Source of the DNA: Fodinibius salinus
GTDB taxonomy: Bacteria > Bacteroidota > Rhodothermia > Balneolales > Balneolaceae
Direction of reading: 5' to 3'
DNA: 64,000 nucleotides
Assembly: GCF_008124865.1 (NCBI RefSeq)
Contig: NZ_VNHY01000003.1
Coordinates: forward strand, 1-64,000
This document shows, piece by piece, positions 49,088 to 54,857 of the stretch (position 1 is its first letter; each line of letters starts with the position of its first letter). The position numbers were made by a program, and so were the translations under genes. The notes beneath the pieces are model-generated. The model was not told where the DNA came from. It saw only the letters and a list, made by a program, of their open reading frames with translations, and did no database searches.

Positions 49088-49125
49088 TTTTTTTGTAACA
49101 AATGGCCTGTGAGATCATCCTGTAA
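49088..49125 (+). promoter_or_regulatory. ECF-type promoter candidate for the TPR membrane protein
   Basis: The sequence has a T run, GTAACA (49095-49100), 16 bases, then ATCCTGTAA (49117-49125), 111 bases before the gene. The same two blocks at the same 16-base spacing, and also the central AATGSCCTGT, recur on the minus strand at 53974-54011. The GTAACA/16-nt/second-block layout is that of ECF sigma promoters. The sigma factor at 54291 is the natural candidate; this is inferred. Confidence 0.65.
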
Positions 49126-49236
49126 ATAGAAAGAGGAATAGTTGTTGGCAAGATTCTTATTTAAGTTGCGGTATCAACGAAGGCTTAAATATCTTGTCTG
49201 ATTGACCAATGATAGTAAATAAAAAAATGCACCATA

Positions 49237-49977
49237 ATGTTTGAGAGACCAAATAATAATGATATAGAGGACAAAATCCACCGTTATGTAGATGGTCAAC
49301 TTTCACCGGAAGAGACAGAACAGCTTTGGGCTGAATTAGTTAGAGATGGTGAAAAGCTCGATTATTTGAAGACTGTTGCAAATGTAAAAGGTATATCTCA
49401 GAAAAGCACCAAACAAAAAGCAAATGTTACCCGAATGTACTGGTATTCAGCAGTTGCAGCTGCTGTAGCTCTACTGATTGGCGTATTGGCGTATATGAAT
49501 TTCTACACTTCTACAGGTACGGAGACTGTGCAGCCGGTAGAAGTTGTTGAATTAGATTATTATCGTTCGGATGGGGGCAGTATGTCTGGCCAAAAAGCAG
49601 AAGATAATGTAATACAACGTGCAATTCGTCTTGCTAATACCGGTAATGTTAGTAAAGCGATTGATTTGCTCCAAGAGGCCTTGCAATCAGCATCGAAGCC
49701 ACAATGGATTGCAAAATTAAGTTTAAATTTAGGATCATTACATTACAACCAGGGTAACTATAAGAAATCAGTACAGTTTTACAATCGGGTCTTAGACCAG
49801 AAGTCTAACATAGATGTACTAATACTTGAAAAAACATATTGGTACATTGGTAATGCCTATTTCCATTTGGATCAGTTGGGGAATGCCCGTGCGAATATAC
49901 AGAAAGCCTATGAGCTGAATGGAGCTTACCGTCGTGTATCCAAAAGCTATTTAGAGGCTCTTTCTACTGCAGAATAA
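49237..49977 (+). CDS. Membrane protein with anti-sigma-like N-terminus and TPR domain
   Basis: A 246-residue protein. Residues 1-65 form a short acidic helical domain (IEDKIHRYVDGQLSPEETEQLW) resembling anti-sigma factor N-termini but without zinc ligands. One membrane helix lies at about 68-90, and the C-terminal half (about 120-245) contains TPR-like repeats such as IAKLSLNLGSLHYNQGNYKK and TYWYIGNAYFHLDQLGNA. The TPR part would be periplasmic. It is convergent with the CHAT gene (37-base gap) and preceded by an ECF-like promoter. A role as membrane anti-sigma is inferred. Confidence 0.75.
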   Translation: MFERPNNNDIEDKIHRYVDGQLSPEETEQLWAELVRDGEKLDYLKTVANVKGISQKSTKQKANVTRMYWYSAVAAAVALLIGVLAYMNFYTSTGTETVQPVEVVELDYYRSDGGSMSGQKAEDNVIQRAIRLANTGNVSKAIDLLQEALQSASKPQWIAKLSLNLGSLHYNQGNYKKSVQFYNRVLDQKSNIDVLILEKTYWYIGNAYFHLDQLGNARANIQKAYELNGAYRRVSKSYLEALSTAE

Positions 49978-50014
49978 CAGGTGAAAGTGATTTTTATCGT
50001 TTCTCCTACCTTCC

Positions 50015-53000
50015 TTAAGCAGCTTTTTGTGCGTCATTCCTGCCAATAATGCCCTGATCTTTAAGAAAGGAAAGCCCCGTTGTGATGATAAAAAAGAACA
50101 AAAACACACTGGCAACTGCTATATTGGTATCTCTATTGGGTTTTACAATGGGATCGTCATTGCCGATTAGCATATATACGCCCCAAAAATGAGGGCTTGC
50201 GTTTTTTGTTTCCAGAAAGTGAATTTTGGTATCTCTGAGTGCTTCGGTTTTTGACATACCTTTATTTAGCTGCTTGTAAAAGTAGGTAGCGAAATCAGAA
50301 GCGAGCATATCATTTACTGACCAAAGGTTAAGCACCAGTGTATTTGCTCCGGCATATCGTAGTGCTCTGCTCATACCCATAATACCTGATCCCTGGATGT
50401 AAGAACCTGAACCTGATTCGCAGGAGTTAAGCATGATCATTTTGTTGCTAAGGTTGAGCTCAAATAGTTCATAGGCAAATACCTGGCTGTTAAATGTACT
50501 GTCTGTACGTTGCCCATTATTCATGTAGATGGCAGAAAACATGGGATCCCGCTCCGAAACTGTGCTATGTGTTGCCATGTGTAGAATATCAGCTTTGGGA
50601 GCTGTACGAATAAAGTCTTCTTTTGTAGCGTTTTGATTTATAACTGTTTTGGTATTTTTGAGATGGGTTAATGAGTTTTTTAAAGCAATTACTTCCTCTT
50701 CAGCATAGGGTAGGGGCACAAGCGATTGGTTATTGTAATTGTTAAAATTTGAAATTCCATACCCTACAAAATCAAAGTTGTGTTTCTTTCCCATTTTCTG
50801 CTTTCGCCGGTTAAAGAAATTACTTAGCGAAGTTAAGTAGCGCGTTCTGAATTGTTCGATAGCATAGGTTGTTTGCCCGTAGCTGTAACTTTTATCCGGC
50901 TTAGAAATCGGCAGAATGTCAACAGGTAACTGGTATAAATATCGGTCGGGAATAATGGTGAGCTGTTTCAAATGCGTTGGGAGCTTGTCAATACCCAGTA
51001 GTTTGGTAATAGTATATAGTGAGTCTAGGTTTGTTTTATTTGAAGCCACCTGGTGCACGGCATCCGATAATTTATTTCTTAGTGTTGAATCCAGTGGAAC
51101 CGTGGTAATGCGGATATCCGACCGGGAAATATTGGCGATGTAATATTGCTCATTAAGTTCCGTAATATGCAACACCTGCTCCCTGGCCGAGAGTTTTTTC
51201 TGGACATCACCAACAGAAAATGATTGGTCTTCGGTTACATTGGTAAGCTTATTGTCGAGGTTGCTTTTTTCTATTTTGAGCTTATTTATCCTCTGCCGGA
51301 TTTGAAGCTGTTCCTCTTGCCTTGCCGTCAATAGTTTTTTCCGTGTAGCATCTAATTGGTTAACAAGCCGTTGATACCGGGTGAGTTCCGATTCATTAAG
51401 TACACTGGATTTTACCAATGGGTTTTGATACAGTGAAGCGTCATTAATTGTTTTTAACTGGTCAAGTTTTTTAACGGCTTTGCCGTATTCTTCCATTTGT
51501 TTATGGATATTCACTGCTAACTCAAAAGCATCCAGGTATTCATCTTCTACGTGCCAAAACCCCGATTTTAGATCGGCGCTGCTCCTGGCTCGTTCCAGGA
51601 TTTGCTTTAACGCCGGATTCAGTATTTGTAATGCCTGTTGGAAATTTCCTTTCTGATGCAGGTAGTCCGCTTCAACTGTTTGGGCTTTGATTATCTGGTG
51701 AAAATCGAGCTGGTCCATATTAAAAGACTGGAATTCTGTTATGAGCTGCCCCGCAGATGTCAGATTGCCCATTTTTAAATTAACTACTGTCTTATTTATA
51801 AGAGCATCTACGTAATTTACACCCTTTTTGTCTGATGTAAGACTGATGATTTGATCATGTATATCAATCGCCTGCCTCAGTTTTCCTTGTTGTTCAAATG
51901 TTAGACCCTTTTCGTTTAATAAGTCGATAAACAGAGCAGCGTTATTACTGGGGTCCAATTTTTTTTCAGCTTTCTTGAAGTATGCTAGTGCTTGTTCATA
52001 GTTTGATCCAAATTTTTTGTAGAATGAACCTATTGATACATAAATAGTTCCGAGATCGGTGTTATTTTTTTTCTCCCGGGCCAATTTTAAGGCTTCATTG
52101 ATATATGTTAGGGCATTTTTCTTGTCACTGGATTTTCTATAGTAGATAAATAAATTATTATAGATTTCAATTTGGTGATCATAATTGTTGTTTTCTTTCG
52201 CGGTATTCAACGCCTGGTTTTGAAGCTGCAAGTATTTATTATATTGTCCGGACTTGTAGTAGGTGAGCGCCAGGTTGTTATAGGTAATGGCCCGGGGTAA
52301 GGCAATATTGGCTTCGTTTGCCTGAGCTATAATGCGCTCAAAAAGTGGTTGGGCTTCCAATACTTTCCCAATATCGTAGAGATAGGTGGCCTGATTCATT
52401 TTGAGACTCAAAATCACTGATTGGCTACCGTATATTTTTGCCAATGGAATAGCAAGCTTTCGGACAATATTTAACCCTTTGTCATAATGCCCCAGCCGGT
52501 ACATAGAATAGTCCAGGTATTTAAATAATCGTAATTTAAGGGGCGAGTTTGGAAATAATTGATCCCCAATCATAAAGTTATAGAGGGAGAGGATATCGGA
52601 ATATTGGTCCGTTATATATAACGCCCGAAAACGGCTGAGTTTGCCAAGTGTATTATCTAGTGTGTTATCAGATGAAAACTGAGAACGCCAGCTTTGAGTA
52701 ATATTTTGCAGATAGTCATCGGAAAAATAGGTTGAATAATTTTTGTCGTAGAGAATGAAAAAATGCGGCAACAGAAAAGTCTCATCCGTCAACATATCAT
52801 TTGTTATTTCTGTTTGCTGGATGATTGTCTCACAAAGCTTCTTATACCTTATACTGGGAGATTCAGGAAAAGTAAACCGTGAAACAAAATTGCGGTATAT
52901 CTTTTTCTTTTGATTTTTGTTTTCCACCGAGAGTAATAGTGCGATAAGAAGATCAGCGGATCCGGTTTGAAACACGCTTTTTTGAAGCTGATCAGGAAAA

Positions 53001-53248
53001 GAGCCTTCAAATTGTTGAAATGATTTTAAGTCACTGGAACGCTGCCTGGTTTTTTTCTCGATAAATGATTGTAGTGCTTCATTTTTACTACCCAGCAGTG
53101 TTAGGGCCCAGGTATTTTCCGCCACATTGGTTTCTTCTTCTATTTGGTTGATATAGTGTATAGCCTGCGATTTCGTTTGTTCGGCAATACCTGTACTGTC
53201 CGAAGCAGAAAATACCTGAAGAAAGCCCAGAAAAAATGCTAATAACAT
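50015..53248 (-). CDS. TPR-CHAT domain protein, exported and membrane-anchored
   Basis: A 1077-residue protein with a signal peptide (MLLAFFLGFLQVFSA), TPR repeats over about residues 230-600, a coiled coil (about 630-680), then a CHAT (caspase-HetF-associated) domain. The CHAT dyad is visible: His894 in LHMATHS and Cys943 in MLNSCESGSG. A membrane helix (about 1042-1062) and a short basic tail end the protein. The protease domain should therefore lie outside the cytoplasm. It is near an anti-sigma-like gene, two lipoprotein genes and a sigma gene; its substrate is unknown. Confidence 0.88.
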   Translation of the reverse strand: MLLAFFLGFLQVFSASDSTGIAEQTKSQAIHYINQIEEETNVAENTWALTLLGSKNEALQSFIEKKTRQRSSDLKSFQQFEGSFPDQLQKSVFQTGSADLLIALLLSVENKNQKKKIYRNFVSRFTFPESPSIRYKKLCETIIQQTEITNDMLTDETFLLPHFFILYDKNYSTYFSDDYLQNITQSWRSQFSSDNTLDNTLGKLSRFRALYITDQYSDILSLYNFMIGDQLFPNSPLKLRLFKYLDYSMYRLGHYDKGLNIVRKLAIPLAKIYGSQSVILSLKMNQATYLYDIGKVLEAQPLFERIIAQANEANIALPRAITYNNLALTYYKSGQYNKYLQLQNQALNTAKENNNYDHQIEIYNNLFIYYRKSSDKKNALTYINEALKLAREKKNNTDLGTIYVSIGSFYKKFGSNYEQALAYFKKAEKKLDPSNNAALFIDLLNEKGLTFEQQGKLRQAIDIHDQIISLTSDKKGVNYVDALINKTVVNLKMGNLTSAGQLITEFQSFNMDQLDFHQIIKAQTVEADYLHQKGNFQQALQILNPALKQILERARSSADLKSGFWHVEDEYLDAFELAVNIHKQMEEYGKAVKKLDQLKTINDASLYQNPLVKSSVLNESELTRYQRLVNQLDATRKKLLTARQEEQLQIRQRINKLKIEKSNLDNKLTNVTEDQSFSVGDVQKKLSAREQVLHITELNEQYYIANISRSDIRITTVPLDSTLRNKLSDAVHQVASNKTNLDSLYTITKLLGIDKLPTHLKQLTIIPDRYLYQLPVDILPISKPDKSYSYGQTTYAIEQFRTRYLTSLSNFFNRRKQKMGKKHNFDFVGYGISNFNNYNNQSLVPLPYAEEEVIALKNSLTHLKNTKTVINQNATKEDFIRTAPKADILHMATHSTVSERDPMFSAIYMNNGQRTDSTFNSQVFAYELFELNLSNKMIMLNSCESGSGSYIQGSGIMGMSRALRYAGANTLVLNLWSVNDMLASDFATYFYKQLNKGMSKTEALRDTKIHFLETKNASPHFWGVYMLIGNDDPIVKPNRDTNIAVASVFLFFFIITTGLSFLKDQGIIGRNDAQKAA

Positions 53249-53279
53249 AAGTTAGGGAAATTTATACAATCACTTTTAC

Positions 53280-53295
53280 ACAGTAAATCTACTGT
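53280..53295. promoter_or_regulatory. Inverted repeat upstream of the CHAT gene
   Basis: ACAGTA, AATC, TACTGT is a perfect 6-bp dyad, 32 bases before the CHAT start and after the lipoprotein terminator. It may be an operator or RNA leader hairpin. No known regulator is recognised. Confidence 0.35.
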
Positions 53296-53310
53296 AGCCG
53301 TGATAGTAAA

Positions 53311-53346
53311 CCAAAAAGAAAAGGAGGGAGTTGGAAATCCCTCCTT
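53311..53346 (-). terminator. Terminator of the lipoprotein pair
   Basis: AAGGAGGGA (53321-53329) pairs with TCCCTCCTT (53338-53346). On the minus strand it is followed by TTCTTTTTGG, a good T tract. It would end transcripts coming from the lipoprotein genes before the CHAT gene, so the latter needs read-through or its own promoter. Confidence 0.9.
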
Positions 53347-53444
53347 GCAGTCAATAATGCTAACCGGAGCTTAATATTGAATTACGCTATCAGAGCTTTG
53401 CCCCTCTTACTGTCAGTAAAAATCGAGAGTGCCGGTGGAGATAT

Positions 53445-53636
53445 TTATTCAGGCTTGTCACGCATGGTATTCATGTCAGAATCCGTACCAAAATCTACAT
53501 TATCTGACAGCTCATCATTAACCTGCTCGGTGTCAGCTTGTTGTTCTGTTTGGGGTGCGGTCAGTGAAGAAGCACAACCGACAGTAAGAGTTACGATAAA
53601 AATGAGGGCGAAAAGTTTTTTGATAAGAGATTTCAT
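53445..53636 (-). CDS. Small lipoprotein, copy 1 (promoter-distal)
   Basis: A 63-residue protein with lipoprotein signal MKSLIKKLFALIFIVTLTVGC (lipobox TVGC). The mature part of 43 residues is acidic and polar, with Gln and Asp/Glu predominating (ASSLTAPQTEQQADTEQ) and no repeat or fold visible. It differs from the upstream copy at two residues (Thr for Ala at 30, Glu for Asp at 42). It is not recognised as a known family. It may be a sensor, inhibitor or substrate in the CHAT/sigma module. Confidence 0.8.
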   Translation of the reverse strand: MKSLIKKLFALIFIVTLTVGCASSLTAPQTEQQADTEQVNDELSDNVDFGTDSDMNTMRDKPE

Positions 53637-53689
53637 AATTGATTGTTGGTTTTGTTTGTAATTATGTAAGAGAGTGCCGGTGGAGATAT

Positions 53690-53881
53690 TTATTCAGGCT
53701 TGTCACGCATGGTATTCATGTCAGAATCCGTACCAAAATCTACATTGTCTGACAGGTCATCATTAACCTGCTCGGTGTCAGCTTGTTGTTCTGCTTGAGG
53801 TGCCGTCAGTGAAGAAGCACAACCGACGGTGAGAGTTACGATAAAAATGAGGGCGAAAAGTTTTTTGATAAGAGATTTCAT
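53690..53881 (-). CDS. Small lipoprotein, copy 2 (promoter-proximal)
   Basis: Nearly identical to its neighbour (61 of 63 residues), with the same signal peptide, lipobox and acidic tail ending in NTMRDKPE. It lies nearest the ECF-like promoter at 53974-54011, so it would be the first gene transcribed. The high identity with maintained reading frames suggests that dosage matters or that the duplication is young. The product has no recognised family. Confidence 0.8.
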   Translation of the reverse strand: MKSLIKKLFALIFIVTLTVGCASSLTAPQAEQQADTEQVNDDLSDNVDFGTDSDMNTMRDKPE

Positions 53882-53973
53882 AATTGATTGTTGGTTTTGT
53901 TCGTATTTATGTAAGTAAAATTGTTTACGGGTATTTCGTGCTTAACCATATAAAAGTATATACCCCTTCTTAA

Positions 53974-54011
53974 TTACAGGATTAATGAACAGGGCATTTG
54001 TTACAAAAAAA
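53974..54011 (-). promoter_or_regulatory. ECF-type promoter candidate for the lipoprotein pair
   Basis: Read on the minus strand: a seven-T run, GTAACA (53999-54004), AATGCCCTGT within a 16-base spacer, and ATCCTGTAA (53974-53982). The first 23 bases differ from those of the site at 49088 by one base. It lies 93 bases before the first lipoprotein start. The rest of the 409-base gap to the sigma gene holds a further TTGTAACA at 54047-54054 on the plus strand but no gene. Confidence 0.65.
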
Positions 54012-54290: not shown

Positions 54291-54857
54291 TTGGCTACCT
54301 CTCGAAGTGATTATTCCGAACTGATAGAAGCGATCAAGCAGAATAAGCATGATCGTACGAACGAACTGCTTCAAGATATTACCAGTCGCTTACGGGACTA
54401 TTTACAGGTGGTAATGAGTGCTGATAAAGTAACTGCTGATGAGGTTACGCAGCGAGCTTTGCTTGAGGTTTATGAACGTATTGAAGCCGATAAAATTCAG
54501 GATAGCCGATCGATATATAGTTATTTGCTGAGAACAACCCGCAATGAATTTTTACAGTTTAAACGAGAGCAGGGATTTCTGAATACTCCATTGGATGAAG
54601 CTGAAGATCATTTTGTTGATCCGGCTGAACAGTTTCAGAATCTGTTGGACGAAGAACGCCAGCAGATTTTGGAAATTTGCATGGATGAGCTTAAGGAGCG
54701 ATCCAGAAAATTAATAGATTATTTTTTTGATAATCCCGATACCACTACCAAAGAAGCCAGCGAAGAATTTGGTATTTCCGGGGCTAATGTCCGCACCAGA
54801 AAATCGCGTATTTTAAGTCGACTTCATGAGTGCTATAAACGAAAAAGACAGCAGTAG
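54291..54857 (+). CDS. ECF-like RNA polymerase sigma factor
   Basis: A 188-residue sigma-70 family protein with region 2 (about residues 25-95: ADEVTQRALLEVYERIEAD, SIYSYLLRTTRNEFLQFKRE). Region 4 (about 125-180) ends in the helix-turn-helix TTKEASEEFGISGANVRTRKSRILSRL. The best start is TTG at 54291, since no ATG is near. It is divergent from the lipoprotein/CHAT block with 409 bases between. It probably recognises the paired GTAACA/ATCCTGTAA promoters of this module; this is inference. Confidence 0.88.
   Translation: MATSRSDYSELIEAIKQNKHDRTNELLQDITSRLRDYLQVVMSADKVTADEVTQRALLEVYERIEADKIQDSRSIYSYLLRTTRNEFLQFKREQGFLNTPLDEAEDHFVDPAEQFQNLLDEERQQILEICMDELKERSRKLIDYFFDNPDTTTKEASEEFGISGANVRTRKSRILSRLHECYKRKRQQ

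Follow-up and report, generated by a model that had tools for sequence, protein, structure and literature searches.

Promoters of extracytoplasmic function (ECF) sigma factors are bipartite and carry AAC in the −35 element, CHAT proteases use a His-Cys dyad, class I anti-sigma factors with a zf-HC2-like domain consist of a short helical N-terminal domain followed by a transmembrane helix, and the sigma-E regulon of Escherichia coli includes small RNAs (sRNAs), e.g. RybB and MicA. According to passages of one study, DegS/RseA is the protease-released anti-sigma system of E. coli sigma-E envelope stress, and the TPR-CHAT protein Csx29 cleaves Csx30, the inhibitor of CASP-sigma, in type III-E CRISPR systems (PMC10028731). 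Excerpts of two other papers describe FoxJ of Fusobacterium as a sigma-E-dependent sRNA (PMC11005410) and class I anti-sigma factors with a zf-HC2-like domain (PMC7406223). Here we analyze a locus at 49-55 kb of the first 64,000 nucleotides of contig NZ_VNHY01000003.1 of Fodinibius salinus (family Balneolaceae), a stretch that we call the window. Two matching sites, termed P1 and P2, are probably promoters used by the ECF sigma factor whose gene lies at 54291, and would link it to a probable membrane anti-sigma factor and a probable CHAT protease. The features of the locus are the following.

49088-49094, plus strand: T tract 5' of the −35 element of P1
49094..49125, plus strand: candidate promoter P1; −35 TGTAACA at 49094-49100, 17-nt spacer, −10 TCCTGTAA at 49118-49125
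49237..49977, plus strand: TPR membrane protein, probable anti-sigma, 246 amino acids (aa); zf-HC2-like N-terminus, transmembrane helix at about 67-91, TPR from about 120
50015..53248, minus strand: TPR-CHAT protein, probable protease, 1077 aa; CHAT domain at 758-1030, TPR array
53445..53636, minus strand: short lipoprotein, copy 2, 63 aa; lipobox-like LTVGC, recognized by eye
53690..53881, minus strand: short lipoprotein, copy 1, 63 aa; product near-identical to that of copy 2
53974..54005, minus strand: candidate promoter P2; −35 TGTAACA at 54005-53999, 17-nt spacer, −10 TCCTGTAA at 53981-53974
54011-54005, minus strand: T tract 5' of the −35 element of P2
54291..54857, plus strand: ECF sigma factor, 188 aa, TTG start; Sigma70_r2 and Sigma70_r4

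P1 precedes the TPR membrane gene, P2 precedes the two lipoprotein genes and then the TPR-CHAT gene, and the sigma gene diverges from the lipoprotein genes. The plus site (49088-49125) reads T7-GTAACAAATGGCCTGT-GAGATC-ATCCTGTAA and the minus site (54011-53974) reads T7-GTAACAAATGCCCTGT-TCATTA-ATCCTGTAA. A preliminary description of this DNA had given both sites with exact letters and coordinates on opposite strands, and was also right about the single difference within the first 23 bases, the gap of 16 bases from GTAACA to ATCCTGTAA at both sites, and the 111 bases between P1 and the TPR membrane gene (49125 to the ATG at 49237). P2 is close to the lipoprotein ATG at 53881 as described, at 92 bases from 53974, the 93 bases originally given being the coordinate difference.

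These two sites are the only exact matches of the preliminary pattern within the window, where the count with up to 3 mismatches is unremarkable (3 matches; shuffle mean of 1.76; at least 3 in 25 of 100 shuffles). Chance is unlikely because matches recur outside the window: the whole genome (2.86 Mb, 9 contigs) contains 3 exact matches, i.e. P1, P2, and a third copy at C2:382392 (contig:position); TGTAACA-N17-TCYTGT has 9 exact matches in this genome and none for the reversed-pattern control; and TGTAACA-N16-CTCTTGT has 58 exact matches over 12 genomes versus 1 for the control. One of these 58 is a contig-end duplicate (C2:776738 and C5:83 of G006 lie in identical contig ends). With up to one mismatch, the longer form gives 116 matches versus 10 for the control in the 12 genomes, and a chance origin of the sites was rejected on these three controls. 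The preliminary pattern with up to 3 mismatches was abandoned, its excess in the F. salinus genome being modest (127 versus 77 for the control).

Among the 9 exact sites of F. salinus, the −10 element is ATCCTGT in 6, ATCTTGT in 1, and CTCTTGT in 2. Compared with its relatives, ATCCTGTAA / ATCCTGT is by sequence mostly the own-genome form of a −10 element that most often reads CTCTTGT in the clade, and therefore the transferable consensus is TGTAACA-N17-TCYTGT; a testable consensus exists, as had been proposed, in this form rather than as N16-ATCCTGTAA. The idea of a feature limited to this species was dropped once the upstream regions of relatives showed the CTCTTGT variant. When 38 genomes were searched with the strict preliminary pattern and up to one mismatch, F. 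salinus had 8 matches and 10 others together had 16, none of the latter resembling the two sites. When 12-22 free bases were allowed, the spacer among 82 matches was 17 in 59, 16 in 10, 18 in 4, and of other lengths in 9; near-fixed spacing of bipartite −35 and −10 elements is a trait of ECF sigma promoters, and the sites display it. The information profile of 90 sites (L130 and L165 being omitted) shows two blocks, of which the first has a T-rich upstream side and is followed by A/T-rich bases, and the second is preceded by tA; the spacer contributes little information. The block signal is circular, as the sites were chosen by their blocks, and the flanks are free of this selection. In 7 out of 7 loci (L071-L077), a tandem second site lies about 130 nt further upstream of the lipoprotein genes; its spacer measures 16 in four of the loci and 17 in the other three.

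The locus is conserved in the genus. Nine of 11 same-genus genomes have an orthologue of the sigma factor (50-56% identity), the remaining two (G001 and G011) having a more distant sigma factor only (35 and 40%). The order TPR protein, CHAT, lipoproteins, sigma is kept: six of the nine orthologous loci have the lipoprotein, CHAT, and TPR genes in the same order, and three are cut by a contig end. TGTAACA followed by TCTTG 17-18 bases on is present upstream of all 6 TPR genes and all 9 lipoprotein genes readable in these loci, and the motif recurs genome-wide and across the family Balneolaceae. In the two same-genus genomes lacking the orthologue, TGTAACA-N16-CTCTTGT has no exact match, and these genomes account for 6 of the 116 matches obtained with the longer form.

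We extended the comparison to an order-wide set of 128 genomes, in which a profile match of E ≤ 1e-49 defined the sigma orthologue (57 positive and 71 negative genomes). The exact motif is present in 52 of the 57 positive genomes versus 13 of the 71 negative ones, a contrast whose significance is overstated by treating genomes of one genus as independent and whose cut-off was picked after viewing the values. The match totals are 243 versus 18 for the control in sigma-positive genomes, and 31 versus 7 in sigma-negative genomes. Within one genus (g26), the motif is present in all 9 members that carry the orthologue and absent from 16 of the 19 that lack it. On these genome sequences, motif presence follows sigma gene presence, and this co-occurrence, together with the synteny, suggests that the sigma factor encoded at 54291 binds the sites.

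The position of the sites relative to genes is also as expected from promoters. Random scatter inside genes, set beforehand as a refutation, was not seen: none of 30 sites (the first 30 returned for the exact genus pattern) lies inside an open reading frame (ORF) of at least 120 aa, such ORFs covering 64% of those 30 loci. In a larger set, assembled partly by eye, such ORFs contain 1 of the 84 sites from sigma-positive genomes, a value that is flattered, since the set omits 13 of the 116 matches with at most one mismatch (judged noise by eye or contig-end duplicates) and the 3 checkable ones among them are inside ORFs. One of those omitted, C1:139033 of F. salinus, is inside an ORF and stands outside the eleven sites listed below. 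In the two genomes without the orthologue, 3 of the 4 sites of the larger set are inside ORFs. An ORF of at least 55 aa begins 20-300 nt downstream of the site in 23 of the 30 loci, and in F. salinus and 9 other genomes with the orthologue, each listed match next to the sigma gene is directed away from that gene.

The 54291 product is an ECF (group IV) sigma factor, i.e. a short protein with regions 2 and 4 (Sigma70_r2, 24.9 bits for a cut-off of 24; Sigma70_r4, 30.9 for 24.1; TIGR02937 sigma70-ECF, 53.6 for 42.9). In the TPR membrane protein, hydrophobic windows start at 67-73 and a helix spans 71-89 in a low-confidence stretch of the structure model, so placed after the N-terminal domain as in class I anti-sigma factors; the Cys ligands of the zinc site are missing (by eye). 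The TPR-CHAT protein matches PF12770 (CHAT) with 165 bits (cut-off 24), the dyad H894 and C943 is invariant in 7 out of 7 orthologues, and the protein has a hydrophobic N-terminus and a transmembrane helix at about 1041-1063. The two lipoproteins differ at two residues. Six orthologous loci uncut by a contig end have 1-3 lipoprotein copies, and therefore the array appears to expand and shrink.

A PADLOC scan of the four module proteins gave weak matches only. Inspection by eye recognized no cas gene in the ORFs of the neighbourhood, which was searched neither with a cas model nor for an array. A scan of genome contigs yielded no relative with CHAT and 8 with the sigma alignment.

Several sites have no ORF of 40 aa nearby, and precede instead an sRNA of 110-123 nt that ends in an intrinsic terminator. 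Eight copies from the genus have a mean column identity of 89%, and the fold of 4 sequences gave shuffle z-scores of −3.2 to −4.9. A covariance model of the transcribed part (R1, E ≤ 0.01) found the sRNA in 53 of the 128 genomes, namely in 48 of 57 with the sigma orthologue and in 5 of 71 without it. Among the latter, the match has an E-value of 4.9e-8 in G022 and of 2e-5 to 0.009 in the other four; some matches in sigma-positive genomes are weak too, e.g. in G055 (E 0.006). Within the genomes searched, strong matches are confined to the family of the window. Full upstream sequence was available for 19 loci on which the model had not been trained, three more being cut by contig ends. In 13 of these 19, several of them from one genus, the modelled RNA begins 0-14 nt after the end of a motif copy with up to 2 mismatches, and in the other 6 the promoter has 3 to 7 mismatches.

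The sRNA has well-defined elements. The sequence ACUCCU is present in 31 of 33 copies, and the two without it (L100 and L104, from G006 and G007) are the most divergent. An alignment (A7) of 31 copies, built from 35 model matches minus two wrong-strand rows, L100, and L104, shows both ACUCCU and AACCUAA to be invariant. In the terminator stem, 95.6% of cells are paired and 11 of 12 pairs have changes on both sides, compared with at most 65.3% and 5 pairs in slid controls. A small GC-GAAACCUAA-GC hairpin precedes the terminator, the next pair being U-A in 22, A-U in 7, and unpaired in 2 of the 31. An Rfam scan of 8 loci, 6 of them with the sRNA, gave 2 matches up to E 1, both under the gathering scores. 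ACUCCU could cover Shine-Dalgarno sequences, as an anti-Shine-Dalgarno element. A second copy of the sRNA (G000:C1:888566-888676; L186:1938-2048, minus strand) is located just upstream of the first in F. salinus, with no recognizable sigma promoter and a different AT-rich sequence upstream. At L087, L091, and L107, the 5' part of the transcripts from sigma sites contains AGGAGTGA, the exact complement of UCACUCCU in the sRNA.

From these data, we consider it probable that P1 and P2 are promoters of the 54291 sigma factor, which would act in a loop with the CHAT protein and an anti-sigma factor. The TPR membrane protein would be a membrane anti-sigma factor, with a cytoplasmic N-terminus holding the sigma factor and a periplasmic TPR domain, and the TPR-CHAT protease would have a membrane anchor and expose both its TPR and its CHAT domain to the periplasm. 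A disturbance of the envelope would lead the CHAT protease to cut the anti-sigma factor and free the sigma factor, the small lipoproteins serving as a signal or a brake. The freed sigma factor would induce CHAT and the lipoproteins, for more activation, and the anti-sigma factor, for shut-off; with one promoter leading to the protease and one to the anti-sigma factor, the loop would thus be closed. It would also induce exported proteases, pumps, surface proteins, small regulators, and the sRNA, whose ACUCCU might act on ribosome-binding sites as suggested above.

Compared with RseA/DegS/sigma-E, the locus has in common an ECF sigma factor, a membrane anti-sigma factor, a membrane-linked protease, autoregulation, and sRNAs (roles that are putative here), but a probable CHAT protease with a TPR array takes the place of DegS, the putative anti-sigma factor has TPR, lipoproteins are present, and the promoter and the sRNA are different. 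The Csx29-Csx30-CASP-sigma system similarly combines a TPR-CHAT protease, an anti-sigma substrate, and an ECF sigma factor in one locus (again putative roles here), with sigma motifs within its own locus; in contrast, the Fodinibius protease has a predicted envelope anchor, its substrate would be the TPR membrane protein, and the candidate regulon consists of exported and regulatory genes. Like FoxJ and RybB/MicA, the sRNA is a separate RNA gene under an ECF-type promoter, here with an intrinsic terminator, whereas ACUCCU, the GC-GAAACCUAA-GC hairpin, and the lack of an Rfam match set it apart. The predicted short helical N-terminal domain followed by a transmembrane helix resembles the class I anti-sigma factors with a zf-HC2-like domain, from which the TPR membrane protein differs by its missing zinc-site Cys ligands (by eye), its TPR on the far side, and a Pfam match below the cut-off.

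What is new here, at the level of sequence, is a candidate regulon of the ECF stress type in which the protease arm would be of another kind, together with an sRNA absent from Rfam. In the parts of the literature covered, the CHAT domain, ECF sigma factors, and anti-sigma factors are joined in type III-E CRISPR work only (PMC10028731). Nothing was found on this module, judged by the titles and abstract starts of the matches listed and with most subscription journals outside the scope; the same searches found no work on sigma factors in this group, one unrelated metagenome survey aside, and none treating both Fodinibius and small RNA. More tentatively, and with somewhat less than even confidence, we propose that Balneolaceae possess a stand-alone envelope cascade of TPR-CHAT protease, TPR anti-sigma factor, and ECF sigma factor with a clade-wide sRNA, that this cascade would correspond, outside CRISPR, to the Csx29-Csx30-sigma arm and might represent its ancestral type, and that CHAT proteins would form a further class of proteases making the first cut in an anti-sigma factor. 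For this group, the analysis offers a concrete pairing of sigma factor and promoter, a regulon that can be tested, and an sRNA family outside Rfam. If the step from CHAT to anti-sigma factor is true, it would suggest an origin of the protease-to-sigma signalling of type III-E CRISPR and another bacterial way of sensing envelope damage.

Three other explanations were weighed. The repeated site could be the operator of a DNA-binding regulator rather than a sigma promoter, its two conserved blocks being half-sites; but the blocks are dissimilar and not inverted, the gap is mostly 17 (59/82), the site ends just before the sRNA, spacer and flanks are low in information except for the T-rich upstream side and the block edges, and the motif tracks the sigma gene, so that we regard an operator as very improbable. 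There is a similarly small chance that the sites are promoters of another sigma factor, the 54291 product being a bystander. The paralogue at C2:458450 would be such a candidate, as it is 36% identical and also adjoins a TPR membrane gene, but G001 and G011, which have the distant sigma factor only (35-40%), show no exact match of the genus form, and the junction between the distant sigma and TPR genes carries a different sequence, TGTAAGGAT-N15-TCTTAC, in 4 out of 4 loci read. This latter sequence (L080-L083) has a similar plan and is itself a candidate promoter of the paralogous sigma factor; the distant paralogue adjoins a TPR membrane gene in all four loci, and CHAT homologues are found in three of these. 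A reading that we hold unlikely, while giving it appreciable weight, is that the TPR membrane protein and CHAT are ordinary members of the regulon and that the sigma factor is controlled otherwise, e.g. by transcription or by an unlinked anti-sigma factor. The weak anti-sigma domain match and the separation of the sigma and TPR genes in F. salinus are in its favour, whereas the conserved synteny, the dual promoters, the distant sigma gene lying directly beside a TPR membrane gene, and the precedents of DegS/RseA and Csx29/Csx30 argue for the protease and anti-sigma loop.

Several observations weigh against this loop or its promoters, in addition to the limits given with the order-wide counts. 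A divergent ORF begins upstream of the site in 14 of the 30 loci. Five of the 57 sigma-positive genomes lack the exact motif and 13 of the 71 sigma-negative ones have it, some with many matches (6 in G022, 5 in G067, 5 in G035, and 4 in G052); the sigma match of G022 is a partial one (residues 4-139), and some of the exceptions are in fragmented assemblies. The zf-HC2 match of the TPR membrane protein (E 0.0026, 18.3 bits) is below the cut-off of 22.2, and its three N-terminal helices (7-59) are modelled with low confidence. We infer, from predicted topology, that its TPR domain and the CHAT protease share the periplasmic side, and the hydrophobic N-terminal signal of the TPR-CHAT protein has no positive charge. 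The structure model of the CHAT domain is poor in the catalytic part, too poor for a fold search, and a profile of 7 CHAT orthologues gave 19 matches among PDB chains up to E 0.001, all to the TPR part (profile positions 279-548). No chain named Csx29 is among these 19, the presence of a Csx29 chain in the file being unchecked.

The preliminary description had proposed a likely local regulon; the data support a regulon, which is genome-wide rather than local. In F. salinus, the candidate regulon comprises eleven sites, i.e. P1, P2, and the following.

C2:382392: 56-aa membrane protein and RND pump
C2:378790 and C2:375667: paralogous 144- and 142-aa proteins; the second was scanned and is AraC-type
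C2:366394: N16 spacer; short ORF
C2:881881: I9-S8 subtilisin
C1:1059556: pseudopilin-like by eye; no Pfam match above the cut-off
C4:287172: HPt
C2:259313: small protein, by eye
C1:888242: sRNA

Targets chosen to represent the relatives include HPt, adenylate cyclase, subtilisin, response regulator, HU-like, AraC-type, M23 peptidase, LuxR-type, RND, HlyD-like, ParA-like, and C10 peptidase proteins; a Pfam match is missing for 3 of 17 representatives. The clustering of targets left out 15 loci (L087, L089, L091, L104, L106, L107, L117, L130, L157, L165, L168, and L170-L173), and some of the first downstream ORFs are wrong picks of the longest-ORF rule.

Four of the F. salinus sites are clustered in C2:366000-383000 (L047), together with two RND-type pumps, AraC-type genes, a short exported peptide recalling NVEALA peptides, and signal-peptidase-like and other exported proteins (by eye), which possibly form a peptide export system. 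In a relative, the target at L126 (G004:C12:277832) is a 452-aa protein that starts with a lipobox-like sequence and carries a Tox-MPTase3 (metallopeptidase toxin 3) domain.

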